From: Bdellovibrionales bacterium
GTDB lineage: Bacteria > Bdellovibrionota > FAC87 > UBA2466 > JACKAF01
Assembly: GCA_020435295.1 (NCBI GenBank)
Contig: JAGQZV010000003.1
Location: forward strand, 1 to 49,093
Reading direction: 5' to 3'
Length of the DNA stretch: 49,093 nucleotides
The notes beneath the pieces were generated by a model. That model had not been told where the DNA came from. It worked only from the letters and a program-made list of their open reading frames with translations, and did not search any database. The position numbers and the translations under genes were made by a program. Positions 33,848-36,979 of the stretch are shown one piece after another; the stretch's first letter is position 1, and each line of letters opens with the position of its first letter.

Positions 33848-33877
33848 TTGAGTTTCCGTGTGCTTCTGGCATACTAT
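33848..33877 (+). promoter_or_regulatory. Promoter of typA giving a near-leaderless mRNA
   Basis: TTGAGT (33848-33853), an 18-base spacer and TACTAT (33872-33877) form a plausible sigma-70 promoter. Transcription would start about 33884, only five or six bases before the typA ATG at 33890, and no ribosome binding site is present. Confidence 0.5.
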
Positions 33878-33889
33878 GGCCTTTTTCAC

Positions 33890-35689
33890 ATGGACCTAAG
33901 AAACCTTGCCATTATTGCTCACGTTGACCACGGTAAAACCACACTTATTGACGGGTTGTTCCGTCAGTCTGGGGTGTTCCAATCCCACAAAGTAGTGGCC
34001 GAACGGGTGATGGATTCCGGGGACCTCGAACGGGAGCGGGGCATTACCATCAGCGCCAAGAATGCCGCGTTCATGTGGAAGGGGACGCGGATCAACATCG
34101 TAGACACCCCTGGCCACTCCGATTTCGGGGGGGAAGTCGAGCGAGCGCTGTTTATGGTCGATGGGGCGTTGTTGCTTGTCGACGCTGCGGAAGGGCCGTT
34201 GCCGCAAACACGTTTTGTACTCCGTAAGGCGCTGCAGCGTGGCATTAAAATCGTGGTTGTCATCAACAAGGTGGATCGCCCCGACTCGCGCATTGAGGAA
34301 GTCGAGGAAAAGGTCCTAGAGCTTTTCTATGACCTTGCTGCGGATGATTCCCAGACTAACTATACAACCCTCTACGCCAGCGCCAAGGAGGGGTGGGCGA
34401 GTTTAGAAAAGCATGAGCGGCGCGAGGATTTCTCCGATCTCCTAAATACGATCGTGAAGGAGATCCCGCCTCCTAGGGTGCAAGCGGACGGCCCTTTCAA
34501 GATGCTGGTTACAAATTTGGGGTACAGCTCCTATCTAGGGCAATTGGCGGTCGGACGTGTGCAGTCGGGAACCGTCACGGAAAACCAGCGAGTGACCTTG
34601 TGGGGCAAGAACGGCAAGCGGGATTTTACCATCGTTGCGCTTGAAAGTTTCGCTGGACTCGGAACCGAACGGGTAAGTTCCTTGGAGGCCGGAGATATCG
34701 CACTTATCTCCGGCGCAGAGTCGCCCACCATCGGTGATACCATCGCCGAGGTTTCGGTGACCGAACCACTACCGCGTATCCAAGTGGACCTTCCTTCCGT
34801 AGCGGTTCGAATCTCTGTCAACACGTCCCCCTTCGCCGGGAAAGACGGCACCTATCTGACCAGTCGACGGCTCGAGGAGTTGCTACAGAAAGCCTGTTTG
34901 AGCAATGTTGCGCTTTCGTTGGAAGATACCGATAGCGCGGAGGTGTTCCTCCTAAAAGCGCGTGGGGAATTGCAGATTGTGGTGGTGCTCGAAGAGCTGC
35001 GGCGGCAGGGCTTCGAGCTCATGGCCGGTCGTCCAGAGATTATTCCCGTCGACGTGGACGGGGAAAAAATGGAGCCTCAGGAAAGCCTCGTCATTGATAT
35101 TCCGGAAAACAAAATGGGGACGGTGACGGAAATAGTGGCGAAGCGAGGCGGCCGGGTGCAGAGCGTGGAGCAACTTGGAGGCTCACAACGGATTCGCCTT
35201 GAGGTGGATATCCCGGCGCGTGGCCTTATCGGGATACGTTCCACCTTACTCACGGAGACGCGCGGTGAGGCTATTTATTCTAGTTCCTTTAAAAGCTACA
35301 TTCCGTATCAGGGTAAACGCTTCAGCCGTACTAACGGGGCGATCGTGGCAGATCGGGACGGAATGAGCACGCAGTACGCCCTGTTTGGGCTGGAATCGCG
35401 AGGGACGCTCTTTATTAAAGAGGGAACTCGCGTCTATGAGGGAATGGTGTTTGGCGAACACAACCGCCAAAACGACATGAACGCGGATGCCACACGGGAG
35501 AAGAAGCTCACCAACATGCGCGCTTCGGGATCGGACGAGTCTACCAAGTTATCTCCGGTGCATGAGTTGTCGCTCGACGAGGCGCTGGAATGGATAGACG
35601 AAGACGAATGGGTCGAAATTACACCAAAAACGGTCCGAATTCGTAAAACTGTGCTGAAGTCCAATCAGCGTCAGATAATCCGTAGTTAG
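33890..35689 (+). CDS. typA: Ribosome-associated GTPase TypA/BipA
   Basis: 599 residues, normal length. Elongation-factor-type GTPase with [12 protein letters not shown] (G1), RGITISAKN (G2), [14 protein letters not shown] (G3), NKVDRPD (G4) and ASAKEGW (G5), then EF-G-like domains and the BipA C-terminal domain ([17 protein letters not shown]). It binds the ribosome and helps late 50S assembly and stress or cold adaptation. ATG 33890 gives the usual N-terminus ([17 protein letters not shown]); an upstream TTG at 33848 is the promoter -35 instead. There is no Shine-Dalgarno. It is followed by a gene for another RNA-related, probably cold-linked protein. Confidence 0.96.
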
Positions 35690-35716
35690 CGCTCCAGAAA
35701 TTCTGGTGCAAGCCCC

Positions 35717-35824
35717 CAGTGAGTGTGCTATGAGGTGTCTTTGTCCGATCTGAAGACCTCTGGGCAGGTGCTCACTGAGATTTTCGCCGGCACCAAACCC
35801 AAACACCTTTTAAGGAGGTCTTTA
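35717..35824 (+). promoter_or_regulatory. Switch-like 5' leader of the RRM gene with anti-Shine-Dalgarno
   Basis: AAGACCTC at 35753-35760 is exactly complementary to GAGGTCTT at 35815-35822, which contains the ribosome binding site; wobble and A-U pairs extend this to 35751-35761 with 35814-35824. The same AAGACCTC can instead pair with GAGG..TCTT at 35732-35741 (two-base bulge). An outer stem CAGTGAG (35717-35723) / CTCACTG (35771-35777) encloses that alternative hairpin. So two exclusive folds exist, one hiding and one freeing the initiation site. Confidence 0.6.
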
Positions 35825-35826
35825 AA

Positions 35827-36171
35827 ATGGGTAAGAAACTATTCGTAGGTAATCTCCCGTATTCCGCCACTAACGCTGAACTCAATGGTTGGTTCGCGCC
35901 GTTTGGAACCGTTGAGTCCGCAAACTTGATCACGGATCGTGCCACTGGCCGCTCCAAGGGATTTGGCTTTGTGGAAATGGCCAATGACGATGAAGCCCAA
36001 GCGGCCATCGATGAACTCAACGGCAAAGAAGTAGAAGGCCGCGCGTTGACCGTGAATGAAGCGCGTCCCAAAGCGCCCGGTCGGTCCGGTGGCTTCGGTG
36101 GCGGTCGTGGAAACTTCCGCGGTGGTTCTTCTCGCTTCGGCGGTGACCGCAGCGGCTCTAGCCGTTACTAG
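35827..36171 (+). CDS. Glycine-rich RRM RNA-binding protein
   Basis: 114 residues. One RNA-recognition motif (residues 3-80) with RNP2 KLFVGNLPY and RNP1 SKGFGFVEM, followed by a Gly/Arg/Ser-rich tail (about 85-114). It resembles the small cold-inducible RNA-binding proteins of cyanobacteria and some proteobacteria that bind single-stranded RNA. Strong AAGGAGG ribosome binding site eight bases before the ATG, within the switch-like leader described separately. Ends before a bidirectional terminator. Regulation by temperature or by its own product is inferred. Confidence 0.93.
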   Translation: MGKKLFVGNLPYSATNAELNGWFAPFGTVESANLITDRATGRSKGFGFVEMANDDEAQAAIDELNGKEVEGRALTVNEARPKAPGRSGGFGGGRGNFRGGSSRFGGDRSGSSRY

Positions 36172-36204
36172 TTCGCTTCCGCGGTGGAGCGTACATTTAA
36201 GAAA

Positions 36205-36240
36205 AACCCTGCTCGTCCTTTGGGTGAGCGGGGTTCTTTT
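36205..36240. terminator. Bidirectional Rho-independent terminator
   Basis: Ten-bp stem AACCCTGCTC (36205-36214) / GAGCGGGGTT (36226-36235) with one G-T pair, followed by CTTTTT on the plus strand and flanked by AAAAA on the left, so it also works for the convergent GT25 gene. Confidence 0.85.
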
Positions 36241-36256
36241 TATTTGGGACTAGACG

Positions 36257-36979
36257 CTATGTTAGATTTCTTAGTATGTGCTTTTTGTAGAGTTTTTCTG
36301 CGTTCCATTTAAGAGCCGTGAGCCATGCTGGGGGGGTGCCTTCGACCCATGAGGGAAAGGTGCCGTTTTCGCTGCCTTGTTCGACGATGGGTTCGCCAAG
36401 CCACATAAATTTAAGCCCCAAGTCCCGATCCATCTGATTGAAGAGGTGATCAATGGGCCAGTGGACGGGATGGCTATGGAGCCACTCTAGCCTTTTCTTA
36501 CAGGCAGTGAGTGTCAAGATGTACGAGTCCGCCGCGCGGCTGGCGTCGTGTTCATAAAGCAGCGTTCCTTTACGAAGACGACTGCGGGGCGTGTACATGT
36601 GGCAGGCGCTACTAAGAAACACCGTGTGGTCCTCGCCTAGACGCCTCGATTCAGCCAAGACGAGCGGGAGTTTTTCTGAGAAGTTCTTAGAAAGAAGAGC
36701 GTCGTCTTCCAAAACAAGACATCTTTCGTAACCGCGTTCATAGGCCAGCTTGTGGGCGATTTGGTGTTTGCATACAACTGACTGAGTGCCGGGCGACAAA
36801 CTTGAAGCAAAGCGCCCTGTATCCTCCGGCGTGAGCTCGTGAGCGTCCTTTTCCAAAATGTACTCGAAGCCCGCGGGAAGCTTGCTAAGTTGCTTTTCGA
36901 TAGAGCGCGCCCGTGCCTCGTACCCCTTTTTACAGTGAATCACAAAGATGCCGTCCAGGCCGGGCAGTCGGGGTTCCAT
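36257..36979 (-). CDS. GT25 family glycosyltransferase (LPS-type)
   Basis: 240 residues. The GT25 fold is shown by IFVIHCKKGYEAR near the N-terminus, the acceptor-side SVVCKHQIAHKLAYE, the metal-binding LVLEDDALL and the later ADSYILT and HWPIDHLFNQ segments. Members transfer galactose or similar sugars to lipooligosaccharide or hydroxylysine-type acceptors. ATG 36979 has no strong ribosome binding site. It follows the interrupted GST gene on the same strand by a short gap and so may share its transcript. Confidence 0.8.
   Translation of the reverse strand: MEPRLPGLDGIFVIHCKKGYEARARSIEKQLSKLPAGFEYILEKDAHELTPEDTGRFASSLSPGTQSVVCKHQIAHKLAYERGYERCLVLEDDALLSKNFSEKLPLVLAESRRLGEDHTVFLSSACHMYTPRSRLRKGTLLYEHDASRAADSYILTLTACKKRLEWLHSHPVHWPIDHLFNQMDRDLGLKFMWLGEPIVEQGSENGTFPSWVEGTPPAWLTALKWNAEKLYKKHILRNLT

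Follow-up and report, generated by a model that had tools for sequence, protein, structure and literature searches.

The leader of the RRM-protein gene in the window (the whole analysed stretch of 49,093 nucleotides, which is contig 263 in a draft genome of 3.44 Mb) is, in the reading to which we give moderate confidence, a cis-acting two-state translation switch that works co-transcriptionally and is tripped by cold or by an RNA-binding protein; it would be a diverged member (type A) of a leader-RNA family of Bdellovibrionota. Conservation, competing helices, covariation and the target set were obtained by computation. To our knowledge, the control of bacterial RRM proteins has been little studied, and a compact leader before RRM genes, occasionally before helicase or desaturase genes, offers a concrete RNA for cold or RRM control. 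The features of the locus are listed in Table 1.

Table 1. Features of the RRM leader and its flanks (window coordinates; SD, Shine-Dalgarno)
Feature	Position	Strand	Remarks
Gene 5' of the RRM gene	33848..35689, likely start 33890	+	presumably a GTPase resembling TypA/BipA, judged by sequence motif
Promoter-like TGTGCTATGAG, extended -10 type	35724..35734	+	motif from related leaders
Nascent hairpin, putative ON state	35742..35792	+	MFE of transcripts from 35742
P1a of nascent hairpin	UG.CCG 35742-35743, 35745-35747 with CGG.CA 35788-35792	+	
P1b of nascent hairpin	35751-35756 with 35781-35786	+	
Anti-SD AAGACCTC	35753..35760	+	one strand of the nascent hairpin (P1b and CUC/GAG), alternatively SD partner
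CUC/GAG pairing of nascent hairpin	CUC 35758-35760 with GAG 35777-35779	+	
P2 within nascent hairpin	UGGGC 35761-35765 with GCUCA 35770-35774	+	MFE
P2 hairpin GGGC-AGGU-GCUC	35762..35773	+	aligned across the 14 type-A leaders of alignment A5
GGUGC	35767..35771	+	partner in SD-hidden fold GCACC 35790-35794; basis strand swaps, MFE
GCACC	35790..35794	+	partner 35767-35771; basis strand swaps, MFE
SD region AAGGAGGTCTT	35812..35822	+	35815-35822 (GAGGTCTT) pairs 35753-35760 in the putative OFF state
RRM-protein gene	35827..36171	+	114 aa, glycine-rich C-terminus; Pfam RRM_1 E 3.4e-26
Terminator-like hairpin 3' of the RRM gene	36205..36235	+	

A first-pass annotation had described two mutually exclusive folds in this leader, one of them hiding the SD. 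Its letters and positions were all correct: AAGACCTC at 35753-35760, GAGGTCTT at 35815-35822, GAGG-TG-TCTT at 35732-35741, CAGTGAG at 35717-35723 and CTCACTG at 35771-35777. As a whole, the observation was partly confirmed and its interpretation partly supported. The anti-SD:SD pairing was upheld: it is shared by the leaders of two RRM paralogs and by relatives, and it does better than strand swaps. Two exclusive folds, one SD-hiding, also stood; as the competitor, the upstream GAGG..TCTT gave way to the better-supported hairpin at 35742-35792. Folded singly, the sequence did not stand out from its shuffles (z -1.47, with 19 of 200 doing as well, and z -1.58, with 14 of 200), so the question was decided by comparison.

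A nucleotide search of the same genome with 35690-35850 yielded two further sites, both on contig 292 and both before paralogous RRM genes. These leaders share AAGACCTC, a GGGC- or GAGC-hairpin, a GCACC- or GCCCC-like stretch downstream and GGAGGTC. The anti-SD:SD pairing was kept at least as GACCTC:GAGGTC in both of them and in relatives of the order. Among the complementary segments of the first-pass annotation, the anti-SD and SD were conserved in the two paralog leaders and the upstream arm was not. The element was present at three of the five RRM matches in this genome and was not shown by those on contigs 122 and 260. By protein search, 57 of 59 genomes, counting the window's own, had RRM matches, and a recurring element was seen in many of the leaders listed.

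The form found in the window's order, type A, carries the anti-SD AAGACCUC on the 5' side. At E<=1, a type-A model (R2), made from 14 hand-chosen leaders (alignment A5), matched 22 sites, which were spread over 12 of 15 genomes; 16 of these sites lay before RRM genes. The other matches comprised one at a contig end, one before an RRM remnant (L239), one orphan adjoining an RRM gene (L244) and three weak matches that had no RRM gene (L240, L243, L245). When strands were swapped between species, using rows that were cut by hand and included the near-identical L021, L022 and L023, the type-A anti-SD:SD pairing gave z -3.6 (0 of 2000 permutations, n = 16), GGUGC:GCACC gave z -2.6 (12 of 2000, n = 15) and P1b gave z -1.9 (80 of 2000, n = 16).

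Two of these copies were observed outside intact RRM leaders. In L239 (G002:C9:14952-15012) the type-A element is well preserved ahead of the broken start of a remnant RRM gene, and L244 (G000:C292:13178-13229), in the window's genome, is a diverged orphan copy that faces away from the RRM gene, with GAAC/GTTC replacing GAGC/GCTC in P2. A third leader type was also seen in the same order (L068, L030, L020), with an AAGGG-loop hairpin (GAGCAAGGGGCTC, AGGCAAGGGGCCT) and a GGGCGATTTCGGAGG-like or GGGGACGATTTCGGAGG stretch ahead of the start.

To follow the window leader by length, transcripts beginning at 35742 were folded. Those ending at 35792, 35796, 35800, 35805 and 35810 were all predicted to form one hairpin, with an MFE of -15.5 to -16.0 kcal/mol, in which the anti-SD is occupied (GAAGA pairs with UUUUC, and CUC with GAG); its loop GGU could pair with ACC 35792-35794 as a candidate pseudoknot. 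By our reading, 8 of 12 type-A leaders were predicted to fold into this nascent hairpin; the exceptions were L033, L009, L053 and L023, of which L033 is a paralog in the window's own genome. As the transcript lengthened, the SD-hidden fold took over from about 35816-35820 and reached -27.2 kcal/mol at 35830. The best SD-open fold lay 11.1 kcal/mol higher at 37°C and 15.0 kcal/mol higher at 5°C.

The first-pass annotation had favored temperature as one of its guesses, and a thermometer that opens by melting was not supported: SD pairing in the equilibrium ensemble of the nearest-neighbor model was 0.98-1.00 across 5-50°C, that is, at least 98% at every temperature, so the leader is no simple thermometer. 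A strict thermometer, in which temperature shifts the equilibrium between the folds, is very unlikely and was rejected as a candidate. Some of the targets are of the cold-acclimation type, which would suit it, but predicted SD pairing was constant in the window and also on average in the related type-B leaders described below (mean 0.84, 0.84, 0.83 and 0.82 at 5, 20, 37 and 50°C). Because opening of the SD costs 11.1-15.0 kcal/mol, the putative ON state could last only through kinetics or with the help of a factor. In this model the window RNA would be bistable at most kinetically, and slow refolding or a factor would have to hold the open form.

The probable transcript start bears on which arms can compete. 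The motif TGTGCTA was found de novo (EM) in 64 type-B upstream regions, and 46 of the 64 best sites lay 24-31 nt before P1a. The best site in the window, TGTGCTATG at 35724-35732, scored 9.3 bits and lay 21 nt before P1a. Type-A leaders were scored only with this motif, trained on type-B leaders: L037 reached 10.9 bits at the same distance as the window, L009 and L053 had sites near by, and the best site was elsewhere or scored poorly in 5 of 12 type-A rows (L035, L002, L005, L038, L022). A -35-like GTGCAA was noted by eye at 35706-35711, 17 nt upstream; a sigma-70 scan of 35400-36400 gave no promoter. From these sequence features, the window transcript would start at about 35741-35743, and the arms at 35717-35741 would therefore not be in that transcript. 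Transcription reading through from the upstream gene is possible, and no terminator was found between that gene and the RRM gene.

The upstream arms GAGG..TCTT and CAGTGAG, which had been named as the competitor of the SD-hiding fold, were seen by eye in neither aligned paralog leader, and they overlap or adjoin the promoter motif; on both grounds they are probably outside the transcript. The form with the outer stem CAGTGAG/CTCACTG had a probability of <=0.04 at each of nine temperatures when 35690-35850 was folded. This stem, closing around GAGG..TCTT/AAGACCTC, was dropped as the biological alternative, given its absence from the two aligned paralog leaders and the promoter overlap.

A related form, type B, was found across Bdellovibrionota. 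The type-B model (R1), made from 25 hand-chosen leaders (alignment A2), matched 119 of 240 Bdellovibrionota genomes at E<=0.01 with strict filtering; genomes of the window's order were not among the 119. An RRM gene was present in all 30 R1 loci examined and in 38 of 40 further regions, the exceptions being L203 and L215. From 5' to 3', the structure runs through P1a (GCU/AGC), P1b (GAG/CUC), an internal loop, P2 (GGGC-AUNGU-GCCC), CGGC.CCC and the SD. Alignment A7 contained 93 matches (90 distinct rows, some also in A2) from 91 of 97 sources; L207 and L096 had two matches each, and L085, L086, L108, L109, L049 and L066 had none at E<=0.01. In L086, which R1 did not match at that threshold, inserted hairpins part the type-B element from the SD, and by eye GCCTCTTTAGC matches GCTAAAGGAGGC fully except for one bulged base.

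In A7, 78.9% of the cells in the type-B helices were paired. Double-change cells numbered 57; shuffling gave 20.5, with no count that high among 500, and the slid controls gave 18-31. The count of pairs with any double change, 9 against 7.3 in shuffles (84 of 500), was unremarkable. P2 contributed 39 of the 57 cells, P1b 11 and P1a 7. Paired cells made up 91.5% of P2, with double changes in all four pairs, and were fewest in P1a (66.5%), which was folded in only 7% of 90 nascent leaders. P1b had a pair probability >0.5 in 84% of the 90 nascent type-B leaders versus 26% of the 90 full ones. Among 47 type-B representatives, an A (81%) and a U (89%) in the P2 loop were conserved and unpaired, and the CGGC/CCC stretch at and after the P1 3' end was likewise conserved.

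The type-B P1 3' strand, CCUCUUUAG, has two possible partners, the P1 5' strand or the SD region. Mean SD pairing was 0.83, versus 0.79 with the upstream parts shuffled; by folding, SD hiding was thus indistinguishable from shuffles, and for this reason the strand-swap test was used. Across 47 rows of <72% identity, a choice by which relatedness was lowered and not eliminated, the duplex of the P1 3' strand with the SD had an energy of -12.20 within species and -11.10 when swapped (z -4.6, 0 of 2000), and the P1 5':3' duplex had energies of -4.94 and -4.37, respectively (z -2.7, 10 of 2000). Three control pairings gave z +1.0, +1.5 and +2.5; because of this scatter, the P1 results near -2.7 here and -1.9 in type A are only modest. 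The covariation supports a predicted hairpin in type B and the pairing of one of its strands with the SD.

These data bear on whether the leader switches at all. In a static leader, the anti-SD:SD pairing would merely lower basal expression and the nascent hairpin would be a by-product or protect the mRNA. We regard this as improbable: the OFF fold is strongly favored at equilibrium and shuffled type-B leaders often hide the SD too, as such a leader would have it, but in the same leaders the P1 strands covary with one another, and one P1 strand covaries with the SD.

RRM leaders of other phyla were also inspected. The core model (R3) matched none of 30 genomes from RRM-bearing records not named Bdellovibrionota (E<=0.01), a control that is blind only for the rest of those genomes, since their RRM leaders had already been inspected, and in which an empty result by itself carries little weight. 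The type-B element was observed before RRM genes in L101, L120 and L122 (44.5, 36.4 and 27.8 bits), whose records are named Rhodospirillaceae, Woeseiaceae and uncultured proteobacterium; these are either misnamed MAGs or cases of transfer. The RRM leaders of Planctomycetota, Lentisphaerae and one Neomarinimicrobiota record (L074, L076, L079, L084, L089, L095, L105, L116, L124, L126) showed another recurrent element about 90 nt before the RRM start, namely CTTTC(N)...(N)GAAAG, the loop of which has a downstream partner (e.g., CGACCC/GGGTCG, CAGCCC/GGGCTG, AGTCC/GGACT). By eye it appears to be an H-type pseudoknot with compensatory changes. Five of its loci were searched against Rfam with no match. 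When leaders from other phyla were scanned for pseudoknots in general, 14 of 30 were positive, versus 41 of 150 shuffled. In Patescibacteria, the RRM leaders L110, L112, L125, L142 and L144 showed, by eye, GTAAGTC-like ... AGAAAG ... GTCG(A)CTTAC, most clearly in L142 and L144.

Types A and B form one family with fair probability. When R2 was run on 43 loci, about 35 of them type B, it gave six matches at E<=1, all six on the type-B element. In the other direction, R1 weakly matched type-A L005 (E 0.007), the own-genome paralog on L035 (E 0.036) and L038, whose alignment was poor. R3 did not find type A (E<=0.1); because R3 and strict R1 miss it, the relation is drawn from the small R1 sets, R2, gene context and the promoter. 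P1 and P2, an anti-SD that is one P1 strand, and a position just 3' of the TGTGCTA promoter were found in the family. The anti-SD lies on opposite P1 strands in the two types and seems to have moved between the strands of the competing helix with the switching logic retained.

To define the target genes, 69 R3 matches were tallied in 27 genomes. These genomes had been picked because their R1 matches were strong or multiple, and the tally was assembled from several analyses. The matches lay before RRM genes (63), DEAD-box helicase genes (3), a CxxC-protein operon (2) and a desaturase gene (1). The DEAD-box targets were recognized by Pfam (L290, L291) or by sequence (L265), and the desaturase target (L281) by Pfam FA_desaturase (1.2e-9), with a weaker element match (28 bits, E 0.005). 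At the two CxxC-operon targets, L292 and L295, the element is followed by a small CxxC zinc-ribbon-like protein and then a basic MxxPGxATQxKRNRE protein; three scanned proteins of this kind had no Pfam match.

Genes for RRM proteins, DEAD-box helicases and desaturases are classically linked to cold acclimation, and cold is for that reason the first guess for the signal. The target set suggests a cold-acclimation regulon, and cold fits the target genes, although the guess depends on few non-RRM copies. Every full copy found in the window genome precedes an RRM gene, with no non-RRM regulon members there, so the cold-regulon argument draws on 4 of the 69 type-B matches, three DEAD-box and one desaturase, in other families. 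A circuit in which the RRM gene regulates only itself seems too narrow an account, because DEAD-box helicase and desaturase genes, too, stand behind the related element.

Bacteria are known to have leaders that bind proteins, and here the RRM protein, not temperature, might bind the hairpin, for example at the conserved loop or the internal loops, and so regulate itself and a few RNA-related genes. We consider this doubtful but worth weighing. RRM genes follow 63 of the 69 matches, and the A and U of the P2 loop and the CGGC/CCC stretch are conserved, as binding would lead one to expect; the desaturase gene and the CxxC operon, on the other hand, are not obvious feedback targets.

In the two-state switch that we prefer, we infer the ON/OFF assignment, kinetic control and cold as the signal. 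Transcription would start at about 35741-35743, and the first 50 nt would fold at once into the P1a/P1b/CUC-GAG/P2 hairpin, taking up the anti-SD AAGACCUC. The SD would then emerge free while the hairpin holds the anti-SD (putative ON). In the thermodynamically better fold (putative OFF), the anti-SD would be paired to the SD, and GGUGC to GCACC; the leader would refold to it unless the hairpin is kept, probably by low temperature, which would slow strand exchange, or by an RNA-binding protein, e.g., the RRM product itself. The function would be more RRM synthesis in cold acclimation and, in relatives, sometimes more DEAD-box helicase or desaturase. A wider proposal, which we put forward tentatively as a possibility, is a phylum-wide RNA regulon of Bdellovibrionota: a short co-transcriptional kinetic switch before RRM genes and some DEAD-box helicase or fatty-acid desaturase genes, whose metastable SD-open fold stays in the cold, possibly held by the encoded RRM protein, making a cold-acclimation circuit independent of CspA-type control.

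Rfam gave no match at the gathering score for the window, none at E<=10 for 35600-35900 and none at the gathering score for 13 related loci. No such leader was described in titles or abstracts among the open-access matches listed. The remark of the first-pass annotation that the element lacked an earlier description agrees with the absence of an Rfam family and of any account among the open-access papers listed, and the leader family is apparently uncatalogued. A word search for RNA-binding in the main text of the HD100 transcriptome paper (PMC3627812) gave no occurrence.

In translational riboswitches, an anti-SD strand is shared between the aptamer helix and the SD. The present element resembles them in that its P1-type helix and its anti-SD:SD helix are mutually exclusive, as found computationally by strand swaps (modest on the P1 side) and by folding at increasing length. 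A small-molecule riboswitch with a translational expression platform is nevertheless a quite unlikely reading. The compact conserved fold, the conserved unpaired letters and the anti-SD swap agree with one, but there was no Rfam match, the targets have no common metabolite pathway, and sequence conservation is moderate. Unlike translational riboswitches, the element matches no Rfam family, and its targets are RNA-binding and cold-type genes.

Among other known systems, autoregulatory ribosomal-protein leaders (PMC7247131) are alike in being structured leaders ahead of an RNA-binding-protein gene; here, the element preceded such a gene in 63 of 69 type-B matches and in 16 of 22 type-A matches at E<=1. 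They differ in that the target here is an RRM protein and a related element also precedes other genes. The cyanobacterial Rbp (RRM) genes, of which Rbp1 is required for cold adaptability (PMC9333190), likewise encode a small RRM protein with a glycine-rich tail, and in the available part of that paper a leader element of this kind is unmentioned for them. The closest known logic is that of the cspA thermosensor and of anti-SD translational riboswitches, neither of which is a family match. The Escherichia coli cspA mRNA thermosensor takes one form in the cold and another at 37°C, and part of the work on it used shorter fragments that stand for folding intermediates (PMC9947658); by that description, the likeness is a leader of a cold-shock RNA-binding-protein gene with two forms. 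For the present leader two forms were predicted, with the open form disfavored by 15.0 kcal/mol at 5°C at equilibrium. Compared to cspA, the present leader is a shorter element with a local anti-SD swap, and it is found in Bdellovibrionota ahead of RRM genes and a few DEAD-box and desaturase genes.
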